Source: Haliclona indistincta (Eukaryota; Porifera; Demospongiae; Haplosclerida; Chalinidae). From it: 64,000 nucleotides of DNA. The DNA is taken from contig OZ024792.1 of NCBI GenBank assembly GCA_964017065.1, positions 8,471,546 through 8,535,545 on the forward strand, written 5' to 3'. Below are positions 5,946-62,948 of the stretch, piece after piece. A program made the translations under genes and the position numbers. The number at the start of each line of letters is the position of its first letter. The stretch's first letter is position 1. The notes beneath the pieces were generated by a model. The model made no database searches. It was not told the DNA's origin and saw only the letters and a program-made list of their open reading frames with translations.

Positions 5946-5977
5946 TAGTACCTTACCCTTGATTTGTGTATTTTTAT

Positions 5978-6238: not shown

Positions 6239-6261
6239 CATGGGTATGGTACTACTATTGT

Positions 6262-8000: not shown

Positions 8001-8006
8001 CATTGA

Positions 8007-14112: not shown

Positions 14113-14638
14113 GTAATAGTTAACTCCCGGTCACTGAGGCGATACGGGATATAAACCGAGGTGGTTAATTATGCTGTCCGAGGGCGGAGCCCGAGGAAGG
14201 CATAATTAACCACCGAGGTATTATCCCGATCGCCGAAGAGACCGGGAGTTAACTGACTTGTACCCCACCACCAGTCTTCTCGTGTTGTTTGTAGCTGCTG
14301 TAGCTTGTAAGCGAAGATCTACGAGAGATGGGAGCCCAGGGCACTCGCCTCCAAGCGCACACTCGCCAGGTCTATAATAGCGAACGCCCGTGTTCAAGTT
14401 GAGTGACAAACGAAGCTGTTCAAGTTGGGCGTCAACTTTTGTGCAGCTAAAACGCAGGGTAACTTGGCTTTCAGGCAGCAATGCTGGCTGACCTTTCCCA
14501 AATGTTAACACGTGCGCCAAAAATTTATTGATAATTTATTGCCGATGGCCCACTAGTATCTGCTATTTTGTGGGGTATAAAGCTCCACGCACTTTCGCCG
14601 GGTGGGCAGGTGTGGACTAGGGACTTGAGCCACTTTGC

Positions 14639-15332
14639 TAGCCTCGTCCCCAGGCTCTCCACTTATCTGTACGGAGAGCCTGGTCGCTAATCTCACGTGA
14701 GCGCAGCGAAGATAATGAGCGTGGGCTTGGACATACCGCACACCCACGCCATTCGGTTGTTAGTCTCGTGCCGGAGCAGGTTTCGGTATCAGGTTACACA
14801 CATCGCGGTATCTACAAAATGCTGAGGAACATCTGTCGGTGTAGCGCATCGGACGAGTGCGATGCTCTAACGAAGAGTCAAGAAGCCCTACAAAATACCA
14901 AATACATGCGTGTGCCGTGAATGACCAAGTCTCTTAGCGAAAGAATTTGGGAAGCTTTCTTCAATGAATCTATGAATGTTAAGTGCACTCAAGGACCTAT
15001 GAGGAAATTCAGCCAGCATCTCTTCCTTGATTGAATCGAATTTCACACGTTTTGGGGCAGGCCCGTCAGTCGCTGCTTCTTGGTATCGACTCTTCAGCCA
15101 CTTCGATTCGTCTGATTCCATCTCTGTACTGTGCCGTAGCTAGTTCCGGTCGTAATTAGGTGGAGTTAGCAAAATAGGTGGGCATGGTGGGCATGCAGGG
15201 CTAGTATGCCCACGCGCACTAATTACCTGTCTACTCTCCGTAGACAGGTAAGGCGCATCACGTGAGATTAGCGACCAGGCTCCCTGTCGGAACAAAATAG
15301 TGCCGAGAGGGTGGAGCCTGGGGACGAGGCTA
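14639..15332 (-). mobile_element. 694-bp Mutator-like element with 9-bp target duplication
   Basis: The termini TAGCCTCGTCCCCAGGCTC and GAGCCTGGGGACGAGGCTA are inverted. The host word CCACTTTGC is present at 14630-14638 and again at 15333-15341, a 9-bp duplication. Undisturbed F1 copies (for example near 37192) have it once. A subterminal inverted block (GGTCGCTAATCTCACGTGA) strengthens the foldback. A 9-bp duplication points to the Mutator/MULE superfamily. There is no transposase inside, only a short host-like frame. Confidence 0.85.
14888..15121 (-). CDS. 77-codon frame inside the Mutator-like element
   Basis: The frame begins ATG at 15119-15121. It has a charged N-terminal half with a possible basic signal (PAPKRVKF), then LSALNIHRFIEESFPNSF and KRLGHSRHTHVFGI. 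The second half has the look of a small winged-helix-like domain that I have seen at the start of transposon-associated proteins in animals, but I cannot name it with confidence. It could be a captured gene fragment or the relic of the element's own first exon. It ends at a stop rather than a clear donor. Confidence 0.4.
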   Translation of the reverse strand: MESDESKWLKSRYQEAATDGPAPKRVKFDSIKEEMLAEFPHRSLSALNIHRFIEESFPNSFAKRLGHSRHTHVFGIL

Positions 15333-15470
15333 CCACTTTGCCACTTCCTGGAAAATATCCATATTTGCCCTTTTTAACTTTAATCTCCTGGAAAATATCC
15401 ATATTTTCCTCTGTATATGTGATATATACCATGCCATTTTCCTTTGATCTTTGGGTGTGGTGGGGTACAA

Positions 15471-16486
15471 CCACTGATAACAAACAATAACCACTGATAC
15501 CCAACAATAACCACTGATAACCAACGACAACCACTGATAACCAACGATAACCACTGAAAACTAACAATAATAACTGAGAACCCATGATAACCACTGATAA
15601 CCAACGATAACCACTGATAACCAACTATAACCACTGATAACCAAGAATAACCAACGATAACCACTGATAACCAACGATAACCACTGATAACCAACGATAA
15701 CCACTGATAACCAACAATTACCACTGATAACCAACAATTACCACTGATAACCAAGAACAACAACTGATAACCAACAATAACCACTGATAGCCAACAATAA
15801 CCACTGATAACCAAGAATAACCAACGATAACAACCGATAACCAACAATAACCAAGAATAACCAACAATAACCACTGATAACCAAAAAAAACCACTGATAA
15901 CCAACAATAACCACTAATAACCATGAATAACCAACGATAACCACTGATAACCAACAATAACCAAGAATAACCAATAATAACCACTGATAACCAACGACAA
16001 CCACTGATAACCAACGATAACCACTGATAACCAACAATAACCACTGATAACCAAGAATAACGACTGATAACCAACAATTACCACTGATAACCAAGAACAA
16101 CCACTGATAATCAACAATAACCACTGATGACCAACAACAACCACTGATATCCAAGTATAAACAACGATAACCACTGATAACCAACGATAACCACAGATAA
16201 CCAACAATAACCACTGATAACCAACGACAACCACTGAAAACCAACGATAACCACTGATAACTTACAATAACCACTGATAACCAAGAATAACCAACGATAA
16301 CCACTGATAACCATCGATAACCACTGATAACCAACGATAAATACCGATAACCAACGATAACCAAGAATAACCAACAATAACCAAGAATATCCTACAATAA
16401 CCACTCTTAACAAAGAATAATCACTGATAACCAACAATAACCACTGATATCCAACAATTACCACTGATAACCAAGAATAACCAAGA
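15471..16486 (-). repeat. 10-bp satellite block 2
   Basis: About 1 kb, rich in the ACTG/AACA/AACG alternation, with many AACGAC and AAGAA variants. It runs from the F1a body end to the F6 body end. Confidence 0.97.
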
Positions 16487-16854
16487 TTAGACCATACCAC
16501 GTGACTTTCGACCAATCAGATCGCTCAAAAAGTGTGCATTAAATAGCTTAATGCACACTTACGTACACTTTTATTAACGCGCACTTTATTAATGCACACT
16601 TTTAGGTAAACAAAGTGAACAAAATAGCAAGCACTCGGTCGGAAAGTCACCTGGTATGGTCTAAAACGTTTAGACCACACTAGGCATGTGCATTACGCGA
16701 TATAAAGCACTCGGGCGTCGTCAATAACGGTCTCGAACGCGTGATAATGCACTCGCCTTCGGCTCGTGCATTATCAACGCGTCTCGACCGTTATTGACCC
16801 CACCATCGTGCTTTATATCGCGTAATGCACCGCCTAGTGTGGTCTAAATATTAC
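16487..16854 (-). mobile_element. Hairpin element family F6, single copy
   Basis: The body at 16487-16664 is bounded by TTAGACCATACCACGTGAC and GGTATGGTCTAA. It is followed by a hairpin at about 16668-16848 from GTTTAGACCACACTAG to CTAGTGTGGTCTAAA, then ATTAC and satellite. The hairpin stem includes TGCATTACGCGATATAAAGC on both sides, and its centre is GCACTCGCCTTCGGCTCGTGC, a variant of the usual core. GTGCATTA words recur in the body. Confidence 0.85.
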
Positions 16855-17707
16855 ATAACCAAGAATATCCAACAATAACCAAGAATATCCAACAATGACC
16901 ACTGTTAACCAAGAATAACCACTGATAACCAACAATAACCACTGTTAACCAACAATAACCACTGATAACCAACGATAACCACTGATAACCAACAATAACC
17001 ACTGATAACCAACAATAACCACTGATAACCAACAATAACCACTGATAACCAAGAATAACCAACGATAACCACTGATAACCAACGATAACCACTGATAACC
17101 AGGAATAACAAACTATAACCACGGATAACCAACTATAACCACTGATAACAAACAATATCAACTGATAACCAGGAATAACCAACGATAACCACTGATAACC
17201 AACGATAACTTCTGATAACCAACAATAACCACTGATAACCAACGATAACCAAGAATAACCAACAATAACCAAGAATATACAACAATAACCACTGATAACC
17301 AATTATAACTACTGATAAACAACAATAACCACTAATAACCAAGAATAACCAAGAATAACCAACGATAAGCACTGATAACTAACAATAGCCGAGAATAACC
17401 AACAATGACCACTGATAACCAACAATAACCACTGATAACCAACTATAACCACTGATAAACAATATTAACCACTAATAACCATGAATAACCAAGAATAACC
17501 AACGATAACCACTGATAACCAACTATAACCAAGAATAACCAACAATAACCACTGATAACCAACGATAACCACTGATAACCACAATTACCACTTATAACCA
17601 AAAATAACCACTGATAACCAACGATAACCACTGATAACCAACGATAACAGAGATTAACCAACAATAACCAAGAATAACCAACAATAAACACTGATAACCA
17701 AGAATAA
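16855..17707 (-). repeat. 10-bp satellite block 3
   Basis: Between F6 and F2a. It contains more AAGAATATCC and ACTGTTAACC variants than block 2. Confidence 0.97.
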
Positions 17708-18182
17708 GTATACGTTATACCATGCCTACCCGTGTTGTATCACAAATAAACGAAGCAATAACTATTAATCCTGAGGGCGTAGCCCGAGGGATTAATGGTT
17801 ATTGCTGAGTGTATTCATGATACACCACAGGTAGGCATGTTATAACTGACTTGTACCATGGCAACCACAAGGCCCACTGATGTCTGTAGGTTTCTTTAGG
17901 ATAAATAAGGGCGACTTGCGCACTCTTTATTGTTTACTGGTGAGGTTGACTCGCAACTCTCACCCCTTATTTTTCTCTCTGGAAGGTAGACCATTTGTAT
18001 GGACTTTTTTTGCCCAGTGGGTGTCATGTGACTTCCCGTGGAATATCAAGATATACCACAGGAAATCACATGATAAACCATGGAATATCTAGTTATTCCA
18101 CAGGAAATCATGTGACTTTCCGTGGTATATCTGAAATACACCACTGGCGGTGCCTTTGAAAATAAGGCTTCCTATGGTACAA
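17708..18182 (+). mobile_element. Hairpin element family F2, copy a
   Basis: The terminal GTATAC is followed by a hairpin from GTTATACCATGCCTACC (17714) to GGTAGGCATGTTATAAC (17846) with core GAGGGCGTAGCCCGAGGG. The spacer TGAC is shared with F1. The body (17850-18182) is bounded by TTGTACCATGG and CCTATGGTACAA. The family word is GATACACCACAGG in the hairpin and AATACACCACTGG near the body end. No target duplication is seen. Confidence 0.9.
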
Positions 18183-19487
18183 CCACTGATAACAAATAAT
18201 AACCACTGATAACCAACAATAACCACTGATAACCAAGAATAACCACTGATAACCAACAATAACCACTGATAGCCAACAATAACCACGGATAACCAAGAAT
18301 AACCAACGATAACCACTGATAACAAACAATAACCAGGAATAACCAACAATAACCACTGACAACCAAGAATAACCACTGATAACCAACAACAACCACTGAT
18401 AACCAACAATAACCACTGATAACCAAGAATAACCACTGATAACAAACAATAACCACTGATAACCAACAATTACCACTGATAACCAAGAATAACCAATGAT
18501 AACTACTGATAACAAACAATAACCAACAATAACCACTGACAACCAAGAATAACCACTGATAACCAACACTAACCACTGATAACCAACGATAACCAAGTAT
18601 AACCGACAATAATAGCATAACCACTGATAACCAAGAATAACCACTGATAACCAACAATAACCCCTGATAACCAACGATGACCACTGATAACCATCAATAA
18701 CCACTGATATCCAAGAATAACCAATGATAACCACTGAAACCCAACAATAACCGAGAATACCACTGATAACCAACAATAACCAGTGATAACCAACGATAAC
18801 CAAGAATAACCAACAATAACAAGGAATAACCAACAATAACCACTGATAACCAACAATAACCACTGATTACCAAGAAAAACTAACGATAACCATCGATAAC
18901 AAATAATAACCAAGAATAGCCAACAATAACCACTGATAACCAAGAATAACCACTGATAAACAACAATAACCACTGATAACCAACGATAACTACTGACAAC
19001 CAACAATAACCACTGATAACCAACAGTAATCACTGGTAATCAAGAATAACCAACGACTATCACTGAAACCCAACAATAACCGAGAATACCACTTATAACC
19101 AACAATAACCAGTGATAACCAAGGATAACCACTGATAACCAACAATAACCTCTGATAACCAACGATAACCACTGATAACCAATGATAACCACTGATAACC
19201 AAGAATAACCAACGATAACCTCTGATACCCAACAATAACCGAGAATACCACTGATAACCAACAATAACCAGTGATAACCAACGATAACCTCTGATAACCA
19301 ACGATAACCAAGAATAACCAACAATAACCAAGAATAACCAACAATAACCATTGATAACCAACAATAAACACTGATTACCAAGTATAACTAACGATAACCA
19401 CTGATAACCAATAATAACCATGAATAACCAACAATAACCACTGATAACCAAGAATAACCACTGATAACCAACAATAACCACTATTAA
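18183..19487 (-). repeat. 10-bp satellite block 4
   Basis: Contains a local higher-order unit: the segment with GGGTTTC-like breaks, CAACAATAACCGAGAATACC, recurs near 18745, 19070 and 19230, so stretches of about 160-320 bp have been amplified together. Confidence 0.95.
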
Positions 19488-19864
19488 AAGAAAATTAAAA
19501 AGATTTCTATCGAAATCAAAAGGATGTAGGGTTGTGAAATCTACCACTGGTCAACAATGTAAGCTAACAAGGACAAGCATGGAATGGTCACGCGATTGAC
19601 TTGCTAACAGACCATAGATCCCTACATCAGTGGCTGCTGTAGTTGACTATAGCTAGTTCAGCTTGTTGCTGTTGACTGACACCTGACGTGCATTCAGCTT
19701 GTGACAGCTTATGTACAGCCACTGATGTAGGGATCTATGGTCTGTTAGCAAGTCTATCGTGTTACCATTCCATGCTTTTCCTTGTTAGCTTACATTGTTG
19801 ACCAGTGGTAGATTTCACAACCCTACATCCTTTTGATTTCGATAGAAATCTTTTTAATTTTCTT
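19488..19864. mobile_element. 377-bp foldback MITE
   Basis: Arms of about 145 bp are near-perfect inverted copies. The left arm begins AAGAAAATTAAAAAG and the right ends CTTTTTAATTTTCTT; both contain GGATGTAGGGTTGTG and CCACTGGTCAACAATG. The spacer is about 75 bp. It lies at the right edge of satellite block 4. A flanking duplication could not be fixed because the right flank is T-rich unique sequence. Confidence 0.85.
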
Positions 19865-20707
19865 GTTTGTGTCCTTTTTTCTTTTTCAGTGAAGTGCAGT
19901 TCGATATCATGCAATTGCTGTGCCATCTTTGTCTCCACCATTGGTTTGGTTTTCCTGTTGTTGATGGCTTTTCTTTATTGTTAACAATTTTAAACTTGTA
20001 GCTAAATAATTCTTATGCTGTAGATATCAGCTCGCCTACGCATGCATGAATACAGTGCATACGAGCCCCACCCAAACTTGTTTACGGCGGTTATAATTAT
20101 CTGGCAAGGCAGAATGGTGATTCTGCACTTGCTAGCTTACCGTTCTTCGAAGACTCCAGACAAATATGTGTTCTCCATGATCTATACGGCGTGGCGATAC
20201 TCAAGCTTGTTCTTGGTCACGTGCGCTAACCACAGCTTGGTCAGTGCGTATTGCGCAATCACAATAATTATTAATGGCGTCTAACACTTAGCTGACAATG
20301 GATCACGATCGAGAAGTCGCGGAATTTATATCGCCGTTTCGCTAAAAACTAAGTTCAAAAGGCACATGCCAGGAGAATTTCACGACTGTTCGTGGGTGTT
20401 TTGGTCTCGGCACTGCTCACGTAAAGGTGCTAGGCGAGTGGAAGAAAGAAAGAAAGAAAGAAAGAAGAAAACGAAGATGACGAAACTCGATTTCACCGTT
20501 TCCAGGTTCGTCACTTTAGTAACAATCTCGAGCAATCTCCTTGCTACTGTAAGATGGGGCAACGCCAGATAGCAGATTTAAGTGTCTTTAGACGTATAAA
20601 ATTCATCACCAGGCGAAATATCAGCGTTTGAACGCTAATACATTGTACGTAGCCGCCATCTTGTTTTCTCGTTCAACCCTACATAGGGAGACACTACCGT
20701 GTCTCCC
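19865..20707. other. Unique spacer with no supported gene
   Basis: This stretch is not satellite. It holds a GAAA microsatellite at about 20441-20466 and a short hairpin at 20686-20709 (AGGGAGACAC-TACC-GTGTCTCCCT). Open frames of 60-80 codons on both strands match nothing I recognise. Confidence 0.5.
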
Positions 20708-21019
20708 TAATACATAGTACGTCATCTTTCACCAATCGGATTGCTCTATTGACCGCGCGTAGCGTCTTCTATAGCAACAAACCGTCGCGTCTTTGCGAGT
20801 TTGAAAAATTCGCGATGTTATTGCGCTCACAGTGAAGAACAATGTAATAAATCATTTATTGCCCTACACAACTTGGGCATTAACCGACATTAATGACCTC
20901 GGGAAAGTCGGTTGCCCTCGAACAGTCTCGGGCGGCGCCCTCGACTGTACTCTGCCAACCGACTTTCCCACGGTACTTAATGTCGGTTATTGCCCTCGCG
21001 TGAGGGCAATAACTAATAC
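20708..21019 (-). mobile_element. Hairpin element family F5, copy a
   Basis: The body, about 20708-20849, begins TAATACATAGTACGTC and ends ATGTAATAA. The hairpin is at about 20856-21013, with ACCGACATTAATGACC on one arm, its complement on the other, and core TCTCGGGCGGCGCCCTCGA. The terminal is TAATAC, then satellite. Only the hairpin side abuts satellite; the body side abuts unique sequence. This is the most diverged of the three F5 copies. Confidence 0.8.
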
Positions 21020-21437
21020 ATAACCAACGATAACCACTGACAACCAACAATAACCACTGATAACCAACGATAACCGCTGATAACCAAGAATAACAACTGA
21101 TAACCAACTATAACCATTGGTAACCAAGAATAACCACTGATAACCAACAATAACCTCTGATAACCAACAATAACCACTGATAACCAATGATAACCACTGA
21201 TAACCAACAACAACCACTGATAACCAACAATAACCACTGATAACCAAGAATAACCACTGATAACCAACGATAACCACTGATAACGAACGATAACCACTGA
21301 TAACCAACAATAACCACAGACAACCACAATAACCACAATAACCACTGATAACCAACAATAACCACTGATAACCAACGATAACCACTGATAACCAAGAATA
21401 TCAAAGAATAACCAATAATAACCAAGAATAACCAACA
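21020..21437 (-). repeat. 10-bp satellite block 5
   Basis: Short block between F5a and the gypsy-split F7a element. Confidence 0.97.
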
Positions 21438-21592
21438 TTAAACTAGGACATGAATAATCCTCTTTGATGTAATGAGGTGTCCAAATTCCCATATACACCT
21501 GCAGCAAAGCCATACAATGCACCACTTATTATACCATTAGCCATACAATGCACCATATAATGCCATACAATGCACCATACAAGCCATACAAT

Positions 21593-21807
21593 TGTAACAG
21601 TGTCGTCGAAACCTGTCTAGTCCTGTTCCTGTATTGTGGTGTATGTGACTGTGATTGAACTTGTGAACTGATGTATTGTGATTGTTGTAGAATAATGGAC
21701 CTCTGTGTTTGTGCGTTGCTGTGTTTTGCACGGCCTCCTGTGTGTTTGTATATAAATGTGCGTGTGATGATTTGAAAGAGAGTATTTTGTGGAAGAACTA
21801 GTTTACA
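21593..21807 (+). repeat. 5' LTR (215 bp)
   Basis: Contains a TATA box, GTATATAAA, at 21748-21756, which would place the transcript start about 30 bp further right and the R/U5 part in the last 25-30 bp. Its two short antisense frames are shadows. Confidence 0.95.
21748..21756 (+). promoter_or_regulatory. TATA box in the 5' LTR
   Basis: GTATATAAA in the 3' quarter of the LTR is the only clear core promoter word. The same word is at 27696-27704 in the 3' LTR. Confidence 0.6.
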
Positions 21808-21808
21808 T

Positions 21809-21825
21809 TGGAGGTTCAACCGAGA
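21809..21825 (+). other. Primer-binding site for minus-strand DNA synthesis
   Basis: TGGAGGTTCAACCGAG starts one base after the LTR. TGG is the complement of a tRNA 3' CCA end. I could not assign the primer tRNA. Confidence 0.6.
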
Positions 21826-21885
21826 CTCTAAACTCTCAGGAACGAGTGGAAGCAGTGACTGTCCAGGAGCCCCAAAGCCCCGAGG

Positions 21886-24800
21886 ATGGCGGAGGGGTCA
21901 GAGTCCAGCGGTCACTGTGGAGCTCACGGAGCTATCCATCGTTCAGAACTGTTGACGCCATGGAGAGCTGAAAGGTCAGCTAAGACGGAGCTTCCCGAGG
22001 GACAGCTCTACTCACTGAACTCAGCCAGGTTGAAGCGACAACATTTGAAGCTTACGGCAGAAGCGTTGGGCCTCCCTGTTGGAGCTGGAGCCGAGGAGAC
22101 TCGCCAACTCGTCGAAGGCCATCTCATAAGCATTGGCAAAGAACCAGGTCTTGTCCAAGTGCTCGTACAGGAGAGCAGACGAGTCACACAGAATCGACGA
22201 CTCTACCTGGTAGACCAAGCGGGAGTATTTGCGGAGGCAGGTTCTGCCGAGGAGTGTCCGCGTGAGTCCGGCGCCATCAGTTCAGAGTTGGAGGAGATGC
22301 GTTCACAGTTGACGAACACACGCGCTCAACTGGACGAGCTGCAGCGTCAACTTCACACTATTGTCGACTCTCACCAGGCAGAGTTACAAATGGAAAGAGA
22401 TCGTGTTAAGCAGCTTTGGAAGCAAATGTGCGACCGCGTGCAGAAGCTTGACTCCGCCCTCGCTGAGAAAGACGAGATAATTGAGGAGCTGAACCAACAG
22501 CTGGCTGGAGCTACTCGTGATCCCAGTCAGGAGAGAGTCAGAGTGCGAGATGCAGAAGAACATGCTGCTTCTAGGAACCTGCAGTTACCTAGAGAGGACC
22601 CACAAGACTCTGTGTATCCTCCTCCCTCTGAATATTCTCTCTCTCCTTCTTGTTCTCTATTGTCTATTCCTAATGCTCTAGATGCACAGTTGCATACCTC
22701 TCACTTCGCAGGTAGACGACAGAGAGAACGTCAGACCTCAGACCGCATAGGTGGACAACAGCGAGAACAGCAAACCACCTCAACTCACCGTCGCAGAGGA
22801 AAGGCGCCTCCAGTAGAACAATTCACTGGTGAAAATCCTGAAGAGTTGCTGGATGATTGGCTTCCTACGCTTGAGCGGGCGGGAGAGTGGAACGGATGGA
22901 GTCGGGATGAACTGTTAATGCAGATGGCTGGACATCTTCGCAGTAGAGCTCTCCAGGAATGGAACTTGTTGTCCAGAGAAGAGAAGAGTGACTGGGACAC
23001 TGCAGTGGTGTCATTGAAGAGTCGTTTGGAGCCCAGGGATAGAGCATTAGCAGCTCAAGATTTTCGACACGCAACTCAGAAGAAGTCTGAAAGTGTGGCT
23101 GACTATATCAGAAGGATCGAGCGTGCCTTCCAGTTAGCGTATGGTCGTGATGCTATGTCGAGAGAGACAAGAGCAATGATACTATTTACTCAATTGCAGG
23201 AGGGATTGCTGTACCGATTGCTCGAGAGTCCAGCAGTATCAGGTGCAAAAAGCTATACTGAACTGAATCTGGCTGCGAAGAATGAAGAGAAGCGACAGAT
23301 TGAGCTGGAGAAGAGAAGAGAATATAGCAGAGGCTTTCGACCAATGGATACAAATGGATACAAATTCAAAACTCCAACCAAAACGCCAACGCTACCTCAG
23401 CCTTCAGCACCAAATCCTGGTAAACCAACACCTGGACCTCGACGATGCTACAACTGTGGAGACCCTGGACATCTTGCCAAAAACTGTCTCAAACCACCTA
23501 CAGAGAGCAAGGGTTCTCACCAGAAACCAAGGAATCGAGGTGTCCATTCCAGACAGGAAAACACTGCACCACCCACATCAGACTCCGCCCATTCTGATCC
23601 ACCTTCTTCCTCTACTCACACTGATCCTCTTTCTTTTCTTTTTTCAGATGAGTCGGACCCGGAGCGGTGTTGCCAAGTGGATGTGAAAGACCAGGGCAGC
23701 CACACTGTCTGTGTTCCGCTACAAGTGGAGGGTGTACCCGCTTATGGTCTCGTAGACACTGGTGCTGATATCACTATCATAGGACCACGCTTGTTTAAGA
23801 AGGTGGCAGCAGTGTCCAGACTTAAGAAAAAAAACTTTAAGCCTGCCGATAAGACACCACATGGCTATGATGGCAGACCGTTTGAGCTTCATGGACGCAT
23901 GCAGCTAACTCTTTCTTTTGACGGACAAGAGATGAAGACGATGGTCTACATAAAGATGGATGTTGAAGATCAGCTTCTGTTGTCGGAAGGTGTGTGCCGA
24001 CAACTGGGCATCGTTAAATATCATCCTAATGTCGAAGTGTGGAGGGGATGCAAGAAGAGGAAGAAGCCGAAGAAGCTGAAGGAGCCAAAGGTTCCCAGGG
24101 TATCCTGCACAGTAAAGCTAGTGAAAACAGTCCATCTAGCCCCACACAGTAGTTCTGTTGTGACCATACAGTCTCAGCTTCCCTCTACCTGTATATTACT
24201 AGAGCCTTTATCTTCCTCTCAATCTGATTCTCAATTACTCTCTCTCCTTGAGTCTCCTGCTCTAGTGAAGACTGATTCCCAAGGAGTTGCTCATGTGGTT
24301 CTTAGTAACCTTCGGAAGACCCCACAGAAGTGTCAGCAAGGAGATGAGCTAGCAATCGCTGTATCCGCTGAAGTGATTGAGCCGGCAGCTGACCATGCTG
24401 TTCCACTTCCGAGGTCACCTGCTGTTCGTGAGATCAGCATTTCAGATCGTATGACTGAACTGTTTTCTCTCCTCCCTAAGGAAGAAATCTCTTTGTCCAC
24501 TTCAGAGCACAAGCAACTCCATCAATGCCTTGAAGAACACCACAGTGTTTTCGCTGTAGAAGAGAACGAGAGAGGACACACGGATCTCGTAGAGATGGAG
24601 ATCTTCACTGGTGATGCGCCTCCAAGCAAGCAACATCTGCGACGAGTGCCTTTTGGAGTGAGAAAAGAAGTGGCCCGGCAGCTGCAAAAGATGCAAGAAA
24701 TGGACGTGATACAGCCTTCAAACAGCCCCTGGTCAAGCCCGATTGTTCTAGTAAGAAAGAAAGACGGTACCTTGCGATTTTGCATTGACTATAGACATCT

Positions 24801-27501: not shown

Positions 27502-27527
27502 GGTTAACGCTCGGGACGAGCTTCTCC

Positions 27528-27538
27528 AAAGGAGGGAG
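27528..27538 (+). other. Polypurine tract
   Basis: AAAGGAGGGAG lies two bases before the 3' LTR, the expected plus-strand primer position. Confidence 0.8.
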
Positions 27539-27540
27539 TA

Positions 27541-51490: not shown

Positions 51491-52745
51491 TTTTGTAGCT
51501 CAGGAAGCTCTAAGATCAAACGCACCGCTAGTGGAATATATCCCATACCACTGCGGATTTCAGGGCAATACTTATATCCCTCAGGAAGTAGTTCTACTTC
51601 CTGGGGAATATATATATCGCCCAGGAAGTCACGCTCACTTCCTGGGGAATATGTATCTCCTCCAGGAAGTCAGCTGACTTCAAAAAGTTACCTCCCACTT
51701 ACCCCTCCGTACGAAGGGAGGAGACGCTGGCTTCACAGAGGGTGAAGCCGAAGTTGCCTTTGAAGAGATTGCGGCGATTTTATAGCACTAATGTTTCATG
51801 ACACTTGTGGGACTCAAATAGTGCGAAAAAATGGCGTCTTGAACTTGTGGACAACAAAAGTAAACCAGCCATAATCATGTAAAGGGAACTATTTGCAGCA
51901 TCTAAAAGCACGACTAAGTTTGGAGCATAAACCAAGCTCGTCGGGAGGGCCAATTAAGCTCAAGCTTAGCAAAGAACGCGTTATGCGCGTATCAATGAAA
52001 TGCCCCACTCCCCCCCACCCGGGGTAGGGTGGGGATTTGTAAAAATTCGTGTGTCAAAAGCCCCACCCCTGGGGCAGTGTAACTACGAAGCCGGTTCACA
52101 ATTTGCCTAAACGATGACACACTACGCAAGTTTTTTGCTGGCAACAGTTGCGCAAAACAAATTTGCCTAGTGAATCATCATTTAAGGCAAACTGTAGACC
52201 GACTTCGAATTTACTCTGCCCCAGGGGTGGGGCTTTTGACACACGAATTTTGACAAATCCCCCACCCGACCCGGGAGGGGGGGAGTGGGGCATTTCGTTG
52301 ATACGCGCATTACTCGAGACAAACGCCGGGACCGTTCGACAGTGACGAACGACGCCGGTCACGGAATGGCTGGACAAACTACTGCAACCTAGGTTTGTTA
52401 AGCTGCAAAGGCTACATAACTAAACTGCAGGACCCACACGTATGCCTCAGCGAGGCTTACCGTTGCTGCCAGTTCTTCGGGCGGTCAACCAATAATCACT
52501 CGCGTACTCGACAAAGTTGGTTTATTCAGGTTAGTAAACGAACGAAAGTGTGCAGAAAGCCAGTCTTGCTGTTGGATCTTAAAGCTTTCTGAGCTACAAA
52601 ATGGTTAACCCATGGGTTCCTCGGCAGTATGGAATATACCCTCGGCGGTTAATTATACCGCCCTCGGGCTACGCCCTCGGGCGGTATAATTAACCAGCCT
52701 CGGCTATATCCCATACCGCCTCGGAACCCATGGGTTAACCTATAC
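51491..52745 (+). mobile_element. Hairpin element family F3, copy c (with Harbinger MITE)
   Basis: Duplicate of copy b at +1812. The hairpin is 52603-52740. Confidence 0.92.
51984..52309. mobile_element. 326-bp PIF/Harbinger-type MITE, copy 2
   Basis: Copied with the segmental duplication, not an independent insertion. TTA flanks are at 51981-51983 and 52310-52312. Confidence 0.88.
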
Positions 52746-53777
52746 ATAACCACTGATAACCATGAATAACCAACAATAACCACTGATAACCTACAATAAC
52801 CAATAATAACCATCGAGAACAACTGATAACCAAATATAACCACTGATAACCAACGATAACCACTGATAACCAACAATAACCACTGATAACCAACGACAAC
52901 CACTGATAACCAACGATAACAACTGATAACCATCAATAACCACTGATACCTAGGATAACCACTGATAACCAACAATAACCACTGATAACCAACGATAACC
53001 AAGAATAACCAACAATAACCACTGATAACCAACAATAACAACTGATGACCAACGATAACCAATGATAACTAAGAATAACCAAGAATAACCAGCTTTAACC
53101 ACTGATAACCAACAATAACCATTGATAACCAACAATAACAACTGATAACCAACGATAAACACTGATAACCAACGATAACCGCTGATAACCAATAATAACC
53201 ACTGATAACCAACAATAACCAAGAATGACCAACAATAACCACTAATAACAAACAATAACCACTGATAACCAACGATAACAACTGATAACCAACAATAACC
53301 ACTGTTAACCAACGATAACAACTGATAACCAACAATAACCACTGATATCCAACGATAACCACTGATAACCAACGATAACCAACTATAAACAGTGATAACC
53401 AACAATAACCACTGATAACCAACGATAACAACTGATAACCATCAATAACCACTGATAACCAACAATAACTAAGAATAACCACTGATAACCAAGAATAACC
53501 ACTGATAAAAACGATAACCACTGATAACCAACAATAACCATTGATAACCAAGAATAACCGCTGATAACCGACGATAACCTCCGACAACCAAGCATAACCG
53601 CTGATAACCAAGAATAACCACTGATAACCAACGATAACCTCTGATAACCAACTATAACCAAGAATAACCAACAATAACCACTGATAACAAACAATAACCA
53701 CTGATAACCAACGATAACAACTGATAACTATCAATAACCACTGATAACCAACAATAACCTCTTAAAACAGAGTATAA
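52746..53777 (-). repeat. 10-bp satellite block 19
   Basis: The first ~250 bp belong to the segmental duplication. The later part is higher-order related to block 16. Confidence 0.97.
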
Positions 53778-54435
53778 GTAATAGTTAACTCCCGGTCTCT
53801 GAGGCGATACGGGATATATACCGAGGTGGTTAATTATGCTGTCCGAGGGCGGAGCCCGAGGATGACATAATTAACCACCGAGGTATTATCCCGATCGCCG
53901 AAGAGACCGGGAGTTAACTGACTTGTACCCAACCACCAGTCTTCTTGTGGTGTTTGTAGCTGCTGTAGCTGTTCTGTAGCTTGTAAGCGAAGATCTACGA
54001 GCGGATGGGAGCCCAGGGCACTCGCCTCCAAGCGCACACTCGCCAGGTCTATAATGGCGAACGCCCGTGTTCAAGTTGGGCGACAAACGAAGCCTGGCGT
54101 CAACTTTTGTGCAGCTAAAATGCACGGTAACTTGGCTTTCAGGCAGCAATGCTGGCTGACCTTTCCCAAAGGTTAACACGTGCGCCAATAAATTATTGAT
54201 AATTTATTGACGATGGCCCACTAGTATCTGCTATTTTGTGGGGTATAAAGCTCCACGCACTTGTGCCGGGTGGGCAGGTGTGGACAAGGGACTAGTGCCA
54301 CTTTGCCACTTCCTGGAAAATATCCATATTGGCCTGGTTTAACTTTAATATCCTGGAAAATATCCATATTTCCCTGGGTATATGGGATATATACCATGCC
54401 ATTCTCCTTTGATCTTTGGGTGTGGTGGGGTACAA
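53778..54435 (+). mobile_element. Hairpin element family F1, copy e
   Basis: The hairpin is 53784-53918 and the body 53923-54435, intact. The left junction is ATAA/GTAATA and the right is TACAA/CCACTG. Confidence 0.93.
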
Positions 54436-55604
54436 CCACTGATAACCAACGATAACCACTGATAACCAACAATAACCACTGTTAACCAACGATAACAACT
54501 GATAACCAGCAATAACCACTGATAACCAACAATAACCACTGATATCCAAGAATGACCACTGATAACAAACGATAACAACTGATAACCAACGATAACCAAG
54601 AATAACCAAGATTAACCACTGATAACCAACCATGACCACTGATAACCAACGATAACAACCGATAACCAATAATAACCACTGATAACCAACAATAACCAAC
54701 AATAACCACTGATAACCAAGAATAACCACTGATAACCAAGAATAACCACTGATAACGTCGATAACCACTGATAACCAACAATAACCATTGATAACCGAGA
54801 ATAACCGCTGATAACCAACGATAACCACCGATAACCAAGAATAACCGCTGATAACCAAGAATAACCACTGATAATCAACGATAACCACTGATAACCAACG
54901 ATAACCACTGATAACCGACAATAACCTAGAATAAACAACAATAACAACTGATAACCAACAATAACCAACGTTAACCACTGATAACTAAGAATAACCAAGA
55001 ATAACCACTGATAATCAACGATAACCACTGATAACCAACGATAACCAATGATAACCAACGATAACCAAGAATAACCAACTTTAACCACTGATAACCAACA
55101 ATAACCACTGATAACCAACAATAACAACCGATAACCAACGATCACCACTGATAACCAACGATAACCGCTGATAACCAACAATAACCACTGATAACCAACA
55201 ATAACCATGAATAACCAACTTTAACCACTGATAACCAACAATAACCACTGATAACCAACAATAACCACTGATAACCAACGATAACCACTGACAAAAAACG
55301 ATAACCACTGATAACCAACTATAACCACTGATAACCAACGATAACCAAGAAAAACCAACCAAAACCACTGATCTCCAACAATAACCACTGATAACCAACT
55401 ATAACCACTGATAACCAACGATAACCACTGATAACCAAGAATAACCACTGATAACCAACGATAACCACTGATAACCGACGACAACCAAGAATGACCAACA
55501 ATAACCACTTATAACAAACTATAACCACTGATAACCAACGATAACCGTGAATAACCAACAATATCCACTGATAACCAACGACAACCACTGATAACCCACG
55601 ATAA
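54436..55604 (-). repeat. 10-bp satellite block 20
   Basis: Contains segments nearly identical to 47700-47950 in block 17, including CCATGACC followed by AACGATAACAACCG. Confidence 0.97.
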
Positions 55605-56293
55605 GTAATAGTTAACTCCCGGTCTCTGAGGCGATACGGGATATATACCGAGGTGGTTAATTATGCTGTCCGAAGGCGGAGCCCGAGGATGGCATAATTA
55701 ACCACCGAGGTATTATCGCTATCGCCGAAGAGACCGGGAGTTAACTGACTTGTACCCCACCACCAGTCTTCTCGTGGTGTTTGTAGCTGCTCGTAGCTGT
55801 TCTGTAGCTTGTAAGCGAAGAACTACGAGCGATGGGAGCCCTGGGCACTCGCCTCCAAGCGCACACTCGCCAGGTCTATAATGGCGAACGTCCGTGTCAA
55901 GTTGGGCGACAAACGGCGAACGCCCGTGTTCAAGTTGGGCGACAAACGAAGCCTGGCGTCAACTTTTGTGCAGCTAAAACGCACGGTAACTTGGCTTTCA
56001 GGCAGCAATGCTGGCTGACCTTTCCCAAGGTTAACACGTGCGCCAAAAATTTATTGATAATTAATTGACGATGGCCCACTAGTATCTGCTATTTTGTGGG
56101 GTATAAAGCTCCACTCACTTTCGCTGGGTGGGCTGTTGTGGACAAGGGACTAGTGCCACTTTGCCACCTCCTGGAAAATATCCATATTTGCCTGTTTTAA
56201 CTTTAATATCCTGGAAAATATCCATATTTTCCTGTGTATATGGGATATGTACCATGCCATTTTCCTTTGATCTTTGGGTGTGGTGGGGTACAA
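55605..56293 (+). mobile_element. Hairpin element family F1, copy f
   Basis: The hairpin is 55611-55745 and the body 55750-56293. It has a ~30-bp internal duplication around GGCGAACGYCCGTG (55881 and 55915). Confidence 0.92.
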
Positions 56294-57178
56294 CAACTGA
56301 TAACCATCAATAACCACTGATAACCAACAATTACCAAGAATAACCACTGATAACCAAGGATAACCACTGATAACCAACAATAACCACTGATAACCAACGA
56401 TAACCACTCATAACCAAGAATAACCACTGATAACCAACGATAACAACTGATAACCAACAATAACCACTGAGAACCAACGATAACCACTGATAACCAACGA
56501 TAAGCACTCATAACCACAATAACCACTGATAACGAACGATAACCAACTATAACCACTGATAACCAATGATAAACACTGCTAACCTAGAATAACCACTGAT
56601 AACCAACGATAATCCCTTATAACCAATTATAACCACTGATAACCAACAATAACCCCTGATAACCAAGAATAACCACTGATAACCAAGAATAACCACTGAC
56701 AACCTACAATAACCATTAATAACCAACAATAACCACTGATAACCAACGATAACCACTGATAACCAACAATAACCAAGAATAACCAACTTTAATCACTGAT
56801 AACCAACAATAACCACTGATAATCAACAATAACCATTGATAACCAATGATAACCACTGATAACCAACAATAACCAGGAATAACCAACAATAACCACTGAT
56901 AACCAACGATAACCAAGAATAACAAACAATAGCCACTGATAACCAACTATAACAACTGATAACCAACGATAACCAATGATAACCAACAATATCCAAGAAT
57001 AACCAACTTTGACCACTGATACCCAACAATAACCACTGATAACCAACGATAACCAAGACTAACCAACACTAATCACTGATAACCAACAATAACAACTGAT
57101 AACCAACGATAACCAATGATAACCAACAATATCCAGGAATAGCGAACTTTAACTGCTGATAACCAACAATAACCAAGA
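56294..57178 (-). repeat. 10-bp satellite block 21
   Basis: Contains a duplicated ~110-bp segment (AACGATAACCAATGATAACC followed by ATATCCARGAATA) near 56960 and 57105. Confidence 0.97.
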
Positions 57179-57833
57179 TTGTTCCCCACCACACCCAAAG
57201 ATCAAAGGAAAATGGCATGGTGTATATCCCATATACACAGGAAAATATGGATATTTTCCAGGATAAAGTTAAAACAGGCAAATATGGATATTTTCCAGGA
57301 AGTGGCAAAGTGGCACTAGTCCCTTGTCTACACCTGCCCGCCCGGCGAAAGTGAGTGGAGCTTTATACCCCACAAAATAGCAGATACTAGTGGGCCATCG
57401 TCAATAAATTATCAATAAATTTTTGGTGCACGTGTTACCCTTTGGGAAAGGTCAGCCAGCATTGCTGCCTGAAAGCCAAGTTACCCTGCGTTTTAGCTGC
57501 ACAAAAGTTGACGCCAGGCTTCGTTTGTCGCCCAACTTGAACACGGGCATTCGGCATTATAGACCTGGCGAGTGTGCGCTTGGAGGCGAGTGCCCCGGGC
57601 TCCCATCGCTCGTAGATCTTCGCTTACAAGCTACAGAACAGCTACGAGCAGCTACAAACATCACGAGAAGACTGGTGGTGGGGTACATGTCAGTTAACTC
57701 CCGGTCTCTTCGGCGATCGGGATAATACCTCGGTGTTTAATTATGCCATCCTCGGGCTCCGCCCTCGGACAGCATAATTAACCACCTCGGTATATATCCC
57801 GTATCGCCTCAGAGGCCGGGAGTTAACTATTAC
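57179..57833 (-). mobile_element. Hairpin element family F1, copy g
   Basis: Reverse orientation. The body begins TTGTTCCCCACC, the hairpin is 57693-57827 and the terminal TATTAC is followed by ATAAAC. It is closest to copy c (shared TTTTTGGTGCACGTG). Confidence 0.92.
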
Positions 57834-58003
57834 ATAAACGACTTTAACCACTGATAGCCAACAATAACCACTGATAACCAACGATAACCACTGATAACCA
57901 ACTATAACCACTGATAACCAATGATAACCAAGAAAAACCAACAATAACCACTGATAACCAAGAATAACCACTGATAACCAACAATAAATACTGATAACCA
58001 ACG
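57834..58003 (-). repeat. 10-bp satellite block 22 (last)
   Basis: About 17 units. The satellite stops at 58003 in AACGCAGTG and does not reappear before the telomere. Confidence 0.95.
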
Positions 58004-58622: not shown

Positions 58623-59416
58623 ACATTATTCACGAAGGTAATACTTTGACTATTGCTGTGGTAATACTTGACTAATACTGTAGGGTATGACTGTGTGTAT
58701 GCAATGCTAGATGTGATGCTGAGTGTGCCACTTCAAGAAGCAGTCTGATGCATCCCCAGTATGGCAAAGCCAAACTGAGCACTCTTGGCAATACCATGTT
58801 GAGGTAGCACTGATGTTTCTGGTAGCGTGGAGTGCACAGCGACCTCTTTTCCGTATAGCCTGGTTGCCTTCATCAGGCATTGTCATTGGGAAGTGACGGT
58901 ATGGCAGTGTGTGTATGACCATCCCTTTTCGACTACGTCGTCGACGACTGCAGTACTCTCCGATCAGTTCTTTTGCCAGCTGTATGCGAAAACTCTTGTA
59001 ATCGCCGAAAGGGCAAGCTGGACTAAAGTCTTTCATCAAAATGTAAGAATTTGTGATTGTCACATCAAGCAGGAACGTGTATACATATTTGTAGAACTTT
59101 CTGCTCTTGGTTCTGCAGCTATAGTACCCACGGAGCTGATCCCCATGATCGACGCCTCCCATGAACTTGTTGTACCTGATGATGCTCTCGGGACAACTAA
59201 TTGGTACTCTAGAGCCATCTTGTAGCCTTCTCTGTATAGTACCACTTTCATCTGGTTGCAGACAGTGGACATGACCATCACCGTTTTCCGATCCATCCAT
59301 GCTGATGCTGACAGCTGACCTTTTTGTACAGTCACGAAGTCACCCCTAAAAGGTTAGCAACAAACATCTAAGATTGGTAAGGGTTACAATAAAAGAATGT
59401 ACATGTACTACATGTA

Positions 59417-59517
59417 GGTTATACACCGAGGTGGAGGTAAATATGGGAATTTGGATACTGAGGGCGAAGCCCGAGGAATCCAAATTCCCATATTTACCGA
59501 CAACGAGGTGTATAACC
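59417..59517 (+). repeat. Terminal hairpin of the autonomous F7 element
   Basis: 101-bp imperfect palindrome from GGTTATACACCGAGG to CGAGGTGTATAACC. Its centre CTGAGGGCGAAGCCCGAGG is the core shared with the satellite hairpins. It is not in the 10-bp satellite, showing that these hairpins are parts of the elements and not products of the satellite. Confidence 0.93.
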
Positions 59518-59711
59518 GGTTTAAACCATGATGCCGATTAGCGCATTAGTACATTATTGCGCAACTACAAGCTGCATTGTGCAATAATCCACGTGGAACA
59601 AGCAAAATTGCGCAATAGTACACGCGACTATTAAAGGAGACCAGCGCGTGTTGCTGTACCGCATTCTCCAGTGACTCCACGCTCCCTTCACACACGCTCG
59701 GGCCACGACTC

Positions 59712-61139
59712 ATGGATTTCGAAGATGAAATATTTCTTGCTGCTTCGCAAATGTACGAGAAAGAAGTAGAGCTGAGAGAGAAGTATGGCTTTATGGGAGA
59801 AGAAGACTTTACTCTGGATCGCTTGCTTGCAGATATCGATGTACCACCGCCCCAACAGTACCATGCCCAAGAGAACGCAGATGCCGTTAGCAGTTCACCT
59901 CTGAGACCAACACGATTTGCTGCTCCAGTCAGTGAAGAAGACCTTCTTAAGAAAATAACTGGCTCTATACCAAAGGCTACGCGGAAGAGTACAGCTTGGG
60001 CAACAACCACTTGGAAAGATTGGGCTACTAATAGGCAGACAGCAGGCAATGAGTTTCCTCCAAAGCTATCAGAGATCACTAATGAACGTCTCAATTACTG
60101 GTTATCCAGATTTGTAGTCGAGGTTCGGAACAAGCAAGGTCTTGAATACCAAGGTGGTTCTTTGTACAGCCTTTGTGCTGGTGTGCAACGGCAAGTTCGA
60201 TCTGAACGTCGTGTTCTCGCAGATCAAGGACAAATAGATGACGTTGATATATTCAAGGATAGTTCATTTGCCTACTTTCGGAGTGTTCTAGATTCTGTGC
60301 TAAAAGACCTACACAAACAAGGAATTGGAACAACTACCAAGCGAGCAGACTGCATCTCTGAAGACATCGAAGAGAAGCTATGGGAGGAGAATGTACTCGG
60401 AGATGATACACCGGCTAAGCTAGTTGATACTCTTGTGTTCTGCTTTGGTTTGAATTTCGCTTTAAGGAGTGGACAGGAGCATCGAGACCTACGTCCCTAC
60501 ATGCTGCAGCTGGTAACACCACCTGATGCTACAGCCTATCTTATCTACACTGAATCAGGGTCGAAGAATCGGCAAGGTGGCTTAAATGAACGGAAAGTCA
60601 CAAACAAGTCGGTAAAGTGTTTTGCCAATGTTGCTGATCCAAAGAGATGCTGTATTCGACTGTACCAGAAGTATATGGCATTGCGACCTAAAGATTCACC
60701 AAAAGATGTGTTCTATCTGAAGCCATTTGCCAAACCATGTCAAGATTGTTGGTACTACAATCGTGCAATCGGGCACAATGTACTGGGAAATACTGTCAAG
60801 AGACTATGTGCCGCAATAGGAGTTGAAGGGAACTTTACTAACCACTCCCTACGGAGAACATGTGCTACTAGACTTTTTCAAGCTGGAGTTGATGAGCAGC
60901 AGATAATGGGTATAACTGGTCATCGTACTACAAATGCTGTACGGCTCTACAAAGAGATATCACAAGAACAGGAAGAGAATTCGAGCAAGATTTTACAAAT
61001 GGCAAAGAAGGCGAAGCCGTCTAGTGAAGAAAGTAAAGATTGCAAGACTACAAAACTGCTGACCAGTAGCTCGATGAACCTTAGTAGTGTTCCAGTGTAC
61101 AATTTTACTTCTTGTTCAGTTGTATTTCACAATAACTGA
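59712..61139 (+). CDS. Crypton-like tyrosine recombinase, 475 codons, intact
   Basis: A single uninterrupted frame encodes an acidic N-terminus of about 90 residues, a core-binding helical domain (about 95-200) and a catalytic domain (about 220-420). The catalytic residues of the tyrosine recombinase fold are all present: R252 (ALRSGQEHRDL), K285 (ESGSKNRQGG), H378-x-x-R381 (NHSLRRTCATRL), H404 (GITGHRT) and Y413 (VRLYKE). The domain resembles Crypton recombinases and the animal ZMYM/QRICH1/KIAA1958 proteins derived from them. Such enzymes cut and rejoin DNA through the tyrosine without target duplication. The start at 59712 is the first ATG after the hairpin. The tail after 430 is Ser/Lys-rich. 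The gene is antisense to the piggyBac gene around it. No stop or frameshift is seen, so it may be active. Confidence 0.9.
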   Translation: MDFEDEIFLAASQMYEKEVELREKYGFMGEEDFTLDRLLADIDVPPPQQYHAQENADAVSSSPLRPTRFAAPVSEEDLLKKITGSIPKATRKSTAWATTTWKDWATNRQTAGNEFPPKLSEITNERLNYWLSRFVVEVRNKQGLEYQGGSLYSLCAGVQRQVRSERRVLADQGQIDDVDIFKDSSFAYFRSVLDSVLKDLHKQGIGTTTKRADCISEDIEEKLWEENVLGDDTPAKLVDTLVFCFGLNFALRSGQEHRDLRPYMLQLVTPPDATAYLIYTESGSKNRQGGLNERKVTNKSVKCFANVADPKRCCIRLYQKYMALRPKDSPKDVFYLKPFAKPCQDCWYYNRAIGHNVLGNTVKRLCAAIGVEGNFTNHSLRRTCATRLFQAGVDEQQIMGITGHRTTNAVRLYKEISQEQEENSSKILQMAKKAKPSSEESKDCKTTKLLTSSSMNLSSVPVYNFTSCSVVFHNN

Positions 61140-62948
61140 TGACTGTATGAGAATTGCAAAGTATTGTGTGAATTATGAAAAGTGATTGTGCAATAGTACT
61201 AGGTGTATATGGGAATTTGAATACCTCATCAAATCAAAGGGAATTATTCATATCATGGTTTAAAAGCTGTTATGATTATTGAAACTTTATGTGGAAGTTG
61301 AGAAATAAAGATCCATACCTGTTCTCAAGCTGTACTGTTTTCAGTAACTCTGGAAACCCCTTGCGATCTTTACGAGCTGTTCCGCAACTGTATATGTCCT
61401 TCACTAGTAGATCTTGCAGCAGCTTTTCAGCAGTGAAAAAGTTATCAAAGAACACATGATGATTCTTTTTCTGTAAGTGATCTGTGAGCTCCTTCACGAC
61501 CTCTGTCCAAGGTCTTTTTCTCCACTCCCCACTTTCCCAGTGTATACCTGGAACTTCTGAAAGAAGCCGTTGTGGCTGTCTCCTAGTACCCACACCTGTG
61601 TTTTGTAGTTAATGTTATTTTTTGAGGGAAGGATGATGATGTGTTGTAAGATACATTATTGTGTGCACAAGTATATCATGTGCAAACCCTAACGATGTAT
61701 TGTTTGCCTAGTAATGCCATAATTTTTATTAGTGTGTAAAATCACCTTGATTCCTCTTTTGATAGGTTTCATCGGCATGTACTGCTTGATAGATGAATGC
61801 CCGGTGAACTTAATCATCGCCTCATCCACTGCTACCTCTTTGTGGGGCTCATAGAGATCAACAAACGACTGTGAAAGATGGTCGATAATTGGGCGCACCT
61901 TTCCCAACCAATCGTACCCAGGTGATCCTCGCGATGGAAGGCTGGTGTTGTCCACAAAGTGCAAATAACGAGATATTTCTCGGAATCGATCTCTCGAGAT
62001 TCTGTCTGCAATGGCAGGATAGTGCAGGACAGGATCTGTGCTCCAGTAATCGTCTAGAGCTGGGTGTATGGTAATTCCCATCAGGATGCAGAAACCGATG
62101 TAAGCTCTAAGCTCTTCTCTGGTGATCTTATCCCATTTATTGTACTTCTCTTCTCCCATTGTCTGTTTAGCAAACAGGTTTGTCTGGGCTACAATCTGGT
62201 CTAAGAATGGCTCAGTGAACATCAAGCTGAATATCTCAGATGCAGTCTCGGAGACTGGCACAGTTGGACCAACATAGCTGCTAAAACTTTTGATGGTAAA
62301 TGATTGAAGTGTGGTGGACCATGAATTAGTAGGGGGGTGAGCTTGGTGTAGAGGAGATGGGGCTGTTTGTTGTTGAGTTCTGCGGCGATCAGATGGGGTT
62401 TGTTGTTGGGTAGTGGGTTGACGGGTTCGGCGGCGGCGAGGAGTTGCGGTAGTTCGCTGTTGAGCGGAGGATGGGTGGAGAGGAGTTGCGCTAGTTTGCT
62501 GTTGAGCGGAGGGTGGGTGGAGAGGAGTTGCGCTTGTTTGCTGTTGAGCGGAGGGTGGGTGGAGAGGAGTTGCGCTTGTTTGCTGTTGAGCGGAGTGTGG
62601 GCGGAGAGATGTTGGGATTTGTTGCTGTTGAGCAGAGGGTGTGTGAGTTTGGTTGGGAGGAATTGAGATATGTTGAGCAGGGAGTGGAACACTTACAAGT
62701 AACTGTGCAGGTTGAATAATTCTACTGTCACTTTGCTCTTCTTCCAGGTCATTGAAATAATCAGTTTGCAGAGGAGAAATGGGGATATCTTCAGCACGGT
62801 TCTCATTCCTGTTTTCATCACTGTCGTCACCATCGTCAAACTCGTCGTCACTTCCTGGCATCATCGGCTCATCAAAATCTTCACAGTCTATCTCATTCAG
62901 CACCTCTTCAACTGTCATATACCTAGCTCTCTTTGCCATCACTAGCAC

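Follow-up and report, generated by a model that had tools for sequence, protein, structure and literature searches.

CryptonA and other animal Cryptons are transposons with a single gene, encoding a tyrosine recombinase (YR) with a DUF3504 domain, and short derivatives without the gene are common (PMC3212892). No terminal repeats were found for animal Cryptons in the 2011 survey of Kojima and Jurka, the accessible text of which does not contain the word hairpin. Fungal and oomycete Cryptons are described there with terminal direct repeats of 4-6 bp, and Crypton movement was proposed by analogy with prokaryotic elements (PMC3212892). The elements described here lie in a 64,000-nucleotide stretch of the sponge Haliclona indistincta (assembly GCA_964017065.1, contig OZ024792.1, positions 8,471,546 to 8,535,545 of the forward strand), which is referred to as the window. 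Twenty inserts of eight families (F1 to F8) interrupt a satellite there, and each joins a long hairpin to a body with inverted ends of its own. The inserts are solidly identified as mobile Crypton-type YR transposons. The favoured reading, which is given a probability of roughly 0.6, is that they form a superfamily with bipartite ends that would be recombined through a folded single strand, in the manner of the attC site of integrons.

Integron cassettes also depend on a tyrosine recombinase and form head-to-tail arrays, and their attC site consists of two inverted half-site pairs around an imperfect palindrome of variable length, whose imperfections are tied to one strand (PMC8946536, PMC3053210). 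Exchange of cassettes involves a single strand and is completed by replication (PMC8946536). The SE elements have a YR, a spacer of 6 bp and terminal inverted repeats that are imperfect, and there is evidence that they exchange one strand (PMC9345347). Helitron2 has end hairpins and asymmetric inverted repeats, one of which lies inside a hairpin (PMC3627910). By title and abstract no description of hairpin-ended Cryptons was found, in a search whose coverage stopped short of subscription journals, Repbase Reports and bioRxiv. Likewise, we found no report of an integron-cassette-like layout in an animal genome, although a prior description is possible.

Element plan, boundaries and target site

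The single long open reading frame (ORF) of the F7 element (59412..61263, plus strand) is an intact tyrosine recombinase gene of 475 aa (59712..61139, plus strand). Pfam places it in the DUF3504/Phage_integrase group of Crypton type, with DUF3504 as the best domain; the protein carries the R-K-H-R-H-Y set of tyrosine recombinases, and a domain scan of the gene returned YR domains only. Relatives occur in Amphimedon and in the molluscs Patella, Mytilus, Saccostrea and Ruditapes, the named protein matches among those listed are all animal, and IntI4 is one among several YR matches. A second F7 copy, at genomic locus L032, matches 59412-61263 at 98.7% over its whole length and has different flanks (blastn). 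The F8 element at 41595..41946 (minus strand) is an internal-deletion derivative of the YR element L033 with the same two ends (blastn 97.5% over 122 bp and 95.1% over 102 bp, the alignments stopping at L033 positions 1227 and 3099). Since the enzyme is that of Cryptons but terminal direct repeats are absent, with inverted half-sites and a hairpin in their place, the elements are a variant of the Crypton kind and not plain members of it. The original prediction, made from the letters of the window, knew of no transposon class with this plan; by its enzyme the class is known, but the plan does differ from that of Cryptons as far as the accessible literature describes them.

The same prediction had counted about 17 insertions in seven families. 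The inserts are real, but they number 20 (F1 seven, F2 two, F3 three, F4 one, F5 three, F6 one, F7 one and F8 two), and the seventh of the predicted families comprises two related ones, F7 and F8. One superfamily with one two-module plan was found wherever this was tested, by script parse, blastn and counts of F1 junctions. The common plan is a hairpin of about 90-180 bp, a few bases, and a body with inverted ends. Read hairpin first, the order is TAW of the target, an N6 spacer, half-site, hairpin, half-site, 5 nt, half-site, body, half-site, and N6-WTA of the target; on the body-first strand it is half-site, body, half-site, 5 nt, half-site, hairpin, half-site and spacer. Joining the two ends as in a circle creates a second core with a 7-nt gap. 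Each of seven junctions tested folds into one long hairpin: the paired body ends form the base of a stem that runs on into the hairpin, with the two gaps opposite each other. Judged by their sequences, body ends and hairpin ends look like one kind of recombinase half-site, examples of which are TTAAC, TTGTAC and TTAGAC.

The clean F1 copy (36684..37331, plus strand, script parse) shows these parts in order: the outer 6-nt spacer GTAATA (36684..36689), the hairpin (36690..36824, from folding), TGAC at the hairpin-body junction J2 (36825..36828), and the body (36829..37331) with inverted half-sites TTGTACCCC...GGGGTACAA, as placed by end analysis and the script, all on the plus strand; its right flank has TT, not TA, at +8/+9. 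In the F7 element, the outer spacer ATGTAG (59412..59417, plus strand, end analysis) is followed by a hairpin with the tip C(GAA)G (59418..59516, plus strand, folding). Bounds of GTTA...TAAC, which had been predicted for all hairpins, do not hold for every one; F6 has TTTAGACC...GGTCTAAA, F5 ends in AATAA and one F8 copy starts with GCTAAAC. Similarly, the outer end is not a fixed motif near TANTAC or TACAT, but a 6-nt spacer of which each family keeps its own, often GTANTA or ATNTAG, and ATATTT in F5a.

Genome-wide counts refer to the assembly of 144 Mb in 46 contigs, in which loci carry L-numbers and contigs C-numbers. The searches scored the best 40 of 121 and the best 90 of 292 candidates, so copy numbers are lower bounds. 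GTAATA beside the hairpin is kept in 35 of 37 F1 ends (collected with an outer-end pattern that allowed only GT[AC][AT]TA, which all 30 loci passed) and in 38 of the 42 F1 copies on C1-C5 whose hairpin has both arm ends intact. These 42 two-armed hairpins, together with 12 single arms, account for the 96 F1 arm ends on C1-C5.

Hairpin and body stay together, as had been predicted. In all 30 fetched F1 hairpins the body is found at the same junction, with one body half-site base different in L016. On C1-C5, the exact junction is present in 41 of the 42 two-armed hairpins, the 42nd being L016 with its single substitution; three of the 12 single arms have the body junction, seven the outer spacer and two neither. 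Genome-wide counts are 169 for the 12-base arm end of F1 and 76 for its exact hairpin-body junction, and exact outer ends elsewhere in the genome number 82 for F1 and 88 for a family named H. Independent copies outside the satellite, which the original prediction had named as its decisive check, exist: among the 30 F1 copies fetched from outside the window, those with non-satellite flanks, 19 of which have both ends, are bounded identically on either side, and the junctions are thus not scars of the satellite.

The target rule is solid: insertion occurs at TAW/N6-WTA, an inverted half-site pair around a spacer, with the insertion point (marked by the slash) at the left edge of this spacer. The F1 target logo started from 36 ends, of which 9 without a body end and 8 in satellite were set aside, leaving the 19 non-satellite copies. 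On their left flank T stands at -3 (16 copies), A at -2 (17) and never G at -1; on the right flank A or T stands at +7 (16), T at +8 (18) and A at +9 (17). Target positions +1 to +6 are weakly biased, the strongest column being T in 10 of 19. No target site duplication was seen in F1 copies and parsed window inserts, as is also the case for Cryptons. TAH precedes 72 of 88 outer ends of the H family and 57 of 82 of F1, and it precedes the spacer in 22 of the 25 hairpins analysed below (exceptions are L061 with CAA, L066 with TAG and L073 with ATG).

Within the window, TA is present on both sides of 15 of 16 inserts, and when the flanks of the 15 inserts in satellite are joined, the 10-bp register is preserved; for four of these (three F3 and an F8), one end had been moved by 1-2 bases to the rule. 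Placement by the longest inverted repeat had put the ends of 5 of 16 elements (the three F3, F8 and F7) 1-2 bases further out, in A runs; as these were shifted to the half-site rule, their fit on that side is partly by construction. Under the half-site rule the F7 element, the last one, ends at 61263 and not at the predicted 61264. The flanks of the F1 copy L013 join into a repeat that is found uninterrupted, with one base different, at 19714-19763 of the window.

The satellite (13693..58003, or 13.7-58.0 kb; Tandem Repeats Finder and satellite masking) is a 10/20-bp repeat based on ATAACCA (ATAACCAACAATAACCACTG), broken by the inserts. It places a TA about every 10 bases, the same distance as between the two TAs of the target, so that each repeat unit reads as one site and the satellite as a whole is a dense target array. 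This match of period and spacing would explain the crowding of elements. F1 is also enriched near contig ends, with 11 of 70 junctions on C1-C9 less than 150 kb from an end, against 2% of the sequence.

A minority of copies stand in head-to-tail arrays. L054 holds three units, first one with the recombinase, then one of 766 bp and then another, each beginning exactly at the end of its predecessor, and L196 repeats the array pattern. Mixed joints link F2 to F7 (L032), an F3 body end to F1 (L001) and a truncated F1 to F1 (L002). The 88 H ends include 10 neighbouring pairs less than 4 kb apart, eight on the same strand and two on opposite strands, compared with 0.23 pairs expected. Two further arrangements were recorded. 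At G000:C2:1612610-1612765, a pair of H outer ends separated by 131 bp point towards each other, as if one hairpin had an outer end on both sides. L066 (G000:C2:18947195-18954220) has three recombinase matches at a spacing of exactly 2925 bp, and upstream of its element lies a minisatellite of about 40 bp.

Strand-specific imperfections of the hairpins

Folding confirmed the hairpins: three of them gave z-scores of -16.7, -11.5 and -13.5 against 200 shuffles each, none of which folded as well. Strand statistics were taken from 25 hairpins with clear ends, the F1 entry being the copy at 14113. Omitted as duplicates or close relatives were L032, L035, L039-L042, L044, L045, L048, L049, L051, L052, L054, L058, L060 and L064, and as unclear or very short L067 and L072. 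On the hairpin-first strand, tandem mismatches are GA/GA in 51 cases and TC/TC in none, and the tetranucleotide CGAG occurs 106 times compared with 2 for CTCG. Mismatches that are stable in a fold (A-G, G-T and G-G) number 156, their complements 13; 24 hairpins lean in this direction, none in the opposite one, and one is tied. The bias is not a product of the folding program, since the other strand yields the mirror image when folded. GA pairs in tandem adopt a stable, sheared form. By predicted energy, the hairpin-first strand folds better in 23 of the 25, and in seven related hairpins changes fall on both sides in 20 of 48 pairs.

At their tips, 20 of the 25 hairpins carry the loop C(GNA)G, the exceptions being F4, L059, L062, L066 and L071. 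The tip pattern CGAGNGCGNAGCNCGAG occurs 836 times in the genome and never in the reversed control; allowing any three-base loop raises the count to 913, with 20 in the control, so that GNA makes up 836 of 913, many of them copies of the same families. In the viral collection the tip pattern was met in at least 120 stretches, which is taken as chance. In DNA, mini-hairpins whose GNA loop has G-C closing pairs are reported to be extraordinarily stable (PMC4686876). These strand-specific imperfections point to a folded single strand.

Foldbacks served as controls: six gave 8 versus 10 mismatches and no GA/GA, and a larger one 12 versus 18. One control is the 379-bp foldback element at 19484-19862 of the window, which lacks the GA/GA signature; the F1 copy L013 sits in a related repeat elsewhere. 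A foldback of about 4.6 kb at 3421-8010 has arms that are 98% identical over 1.47 kb and a 101-bp tandem repeat in the left arm.

A proposed folded-strand exchange and its alternatives

According to the favoured reading, the recombinase would act on the hairpin-first strand, folded as single-stranded DNA. In a circular form, the outer half-sites would pair, the two spacers would stay mostly unpaired and the hairpin would form the tip, which is the architecture of a folded integron attC. The exchange would involve one strand, at the edge of the spacer that faces the body, and replication would complete the joint; with such an exchange, the element keeps its own spacer and the target its own. 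The body may hold the recombinase gene or be without a gene, and cassette-like arrays would arise when new units enter at the end of old ones.

Several points weigh against this reading. All evidence comes from one assembly, in which no circle, single-stranded intermediate or reaction has been seen, and the reading presupposes that an animal cell can supply single-stranded DNA. Within families, hairpin and body half-sites resemble each other weakly above chance (0.661 versus 0.611 for 23 hairpins; 410 of 20000 permutations), and the 5-nt inner spacer fits 25 of 25 hairpins in a parse that demanded 5. In F2 and L059 it is the other strand that has the better fold energy, mismatches are few in the control foldbacks, and the hairpin families are not all independent, so that shared ancestry could hold part of the bias. 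The exact F1-F1 array junction is found once in the genome. In L043, an array like L054, the third unit belongs to a different family and its joint is irregular by one base, and at L195 three H outer ends stand in a row with less exact joints. No recombinase-coding partner for F1 and F6 was found by blastn against the loci, and no ORF longer than 97 aa in the six arrayed units without YR that were checked, which thus have no passenger genes like those of integrons. Finally, the YR gene has its sense strand on the hairpin-first side, and the same bias would be expected if the hairpin had a role in RNA.

An ordinary Crypton-type transposon that moves as double-stranded DNA via a circle, with the hairpin as an accessory duplex site that might, for instance, bind additional recombinase, is considered unlikely. 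YRs normally recombine duplex cores, and Cre, XerH and Tn1549 Int are close in fold to the sponge enzyme. A circle route is known for Tn916-like elements. For fungal Cryptons it has been proposed. The target of the sponge elements consists of two half-sites in palindromic arrangement, and its spacer falls within the usual range, given as 6-8 bp (PMC3212892). However, a two-strand exchange between unmatched spacers would mix those of element and target at each move, whereas GTAATA is kept at nearly all F1 ends and target positions +1 to +6 are weakly biased. Exchange in duplex form also gives no reason for the excess of GA/GA over TC/TC (51 vs 0) or for the GNA tips.

It is improbable that the hairpin works as RNA, as the 5' leader of the recombinase mRNA or as a silencing signal that stands at the end because the gene starts there. 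The strand with the stable mismatches is indeed the sense strand, and sheared GA pairs and compact loops also suit RNA. Against this, F1, a family in which no gene was found, retains both hairpin and junction, and GT pairs are few (18, compared with 1243 Watson-Crick pairs). The hairpin also starts 6 nt from the element end, so a leader containing all of it would have to begin in host DNA or within these 6 nt. The extraordinary stability reported for GNA loops with G-C closing pairs concerns DNA (PMC4686876).

A HUH mechanism of the Helitron or IS200/IS605 type is very improbable. It would account for the hairpin at one end, the lack of a target duplication and the single-strand character, but the gene found within elements having these ends is a tyrosine recombinase with the R-K-H-R-H-Y set. 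HUH elements target a one-sided tetranucleotide or A^T, whereas the target here is a two-sided palindromic motif, and the reading was set aside for these two reasons. Practically no chance is left to two separate inverted-repeat elements side by side, such as miniature inverted-repeat transposable elements adjacent by chance, or to satellite recombination scars: each module has inverted repeats of its own, but for F1 both are already refuted by the body at the same junction in 42 of 42 two-armed hairpins on C1-C5 and by the 19 copies with both ends outside the satellite.

The window and the relation to known systems

Both ends were parsed by script in 16 of the 20 elements. The other four, starting at 20707, 21438, 29488 and 35867, have mutated ends or an insertion and were placed by eye and blastn against the genome loci; the outer ends at 21019 and 27955 had no detected body end in the script parse. 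Besides the clean copy, F1 is found at 14113..15470 (plus strand; at 1358 bp the longest, with an apparent internal insertion, TAA on the left and TA at +8/+9 on the right) and, by script parse, at 43376..44033 and 46321..47002 (minus), 53778..54435 and 55605..56293 (plus) and 57179..57833 (minus). F6 lies at 16487..16854 (minus, script parse). The F2 element at 17708..18182 (plus, script parse) matches the YR element L059 on its hairpin side (91% over 149 bp). The second F2 element at 29488..29910 (minus, by eye), which has a mutated hairpin start, matches L059 at 94% over 149 bp. F4 (39680..40239, plus, script parse) is 78% similar over 229 bp to the upstream part of the YR element L061. These comparisons are from blastn, as are the matches of two F3 elements to L071 over 157 bp, at 44464..45381 (83%) and 49681..50933 (85%), both on the minus strand and parsed by script. 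The third, at 51493..52745 (minus; script parse and by eye), is apparently a segmental copy of 49681-50933 that includes flanking satellite.

F5 elements lie at 20707..21019 (minus, with a degenerate body end and an approximate left boundary; by eye and blastn), 32042..32378 (plus, script parse) and 35867..36204 (plus, with a mutated hairpin start; by eye and blastn). The F8 element at 21438..27955 (minus), whose ends match the YR element L033 at 98.0% (102 bp) and 99.2% (122 bp) in blastn, is split by a Ty3/gypsy-like retrotransposon (21595-27755) with an uninterrupted 1871-aa ORF and terminal repeats that are 100% identical over 215 bp. A satellite insert with an A-rich end at 33185-34005, perhaps retrotransposed, does not belong to the hairpin class by eye. 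The F7 element is flanked by fragments of a minus-strand transposase gene of piggyBac type (DDE_Tnp_1_7), at 58707-59300 and 61689-62948. The window ends in an (AGGGTTT)n array (63467-64000), which resembles a telomere at a chromosome end; this repeat is typical of plants. At the other side, 1-2690 holds a P4-type ATPase-like gene with short introns, and a tRNA-Ile (AAT) lies at 86-159; the one Rfam match in the window is a tRNA. In the viral collection, a YR alignment gave one distant locus from 79 matched stretches.

Compared with animal Cryptons, the elements differ in their inverted body half-sites, the long imperfect hairpin at the 5' end of the gene, the TAW/N6-WTA target, the kept spacer and the arrays. 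An exchange of the integron type, finished by replication, would explain the kept spacer. In contrast to integrons, the recombinase is of DUF3504/QRICH1 type and not IntI, the half-sites are TTA-like instead of the RYYYAAC/GTTRRRY of attC, and the strand is marked by tandem GA pairs and GNA tips instead of two extrahelical bases. Insertion takes place at scattered TAW/N6-WTA sites, the six units checked have no passenger genes, and the host is an animal. SE elements are bacterial, 7 kb long and carry two YR genes (intA and intB) plus two further core genes; no inverted repeat was detected in their target, unlike here, and the 6 bp in their circle come from beside the donor attL and end beside attR (PMC9345347), whereas here the spacer stays at the hairpin end. 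Helitron2 uses a Rep/helicase enzyme (PMC3627910), the sponge elements a tyrosine recombinase. Thus, by enzyme the elements are of a known kind, while by ends and likely mechanism they are a clear variant, integron-cassette-like without being integron cassettes.

Exact ends, a target rule and a structural code make the reaction testable with short DNAs. The chances are even that this animal genome holds diverse, apparently recent integron-like cassettes, in which DUF3504 recombinases and units without a gene have folded single-strand attachment sites in common (with tandem GA pairs, GNA tip and unpaired spacers as a code of their own), and which insert by single-strand exchange at TAW/N6-WTA and build head-to-tail arrays. 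If so, eukaryotes would have arrived, independently of integrons, at a recombination system guided by the structure of DNA more than by its sequence. The equality of repeat length and target spacing offers a reason for the crowding in one chromosome-end satellite. The DUF3504 domains of KCTD1, QRICH1 and ZMYM2-4 have been traced to Cryptons (PMC3212892). If the folded strand is the substrate, single-strand site recombination would not be confined to bacteria, and KCTD1, QRICH1 and ZMYM2-4 would descend from enzymes that bound folded DNA.

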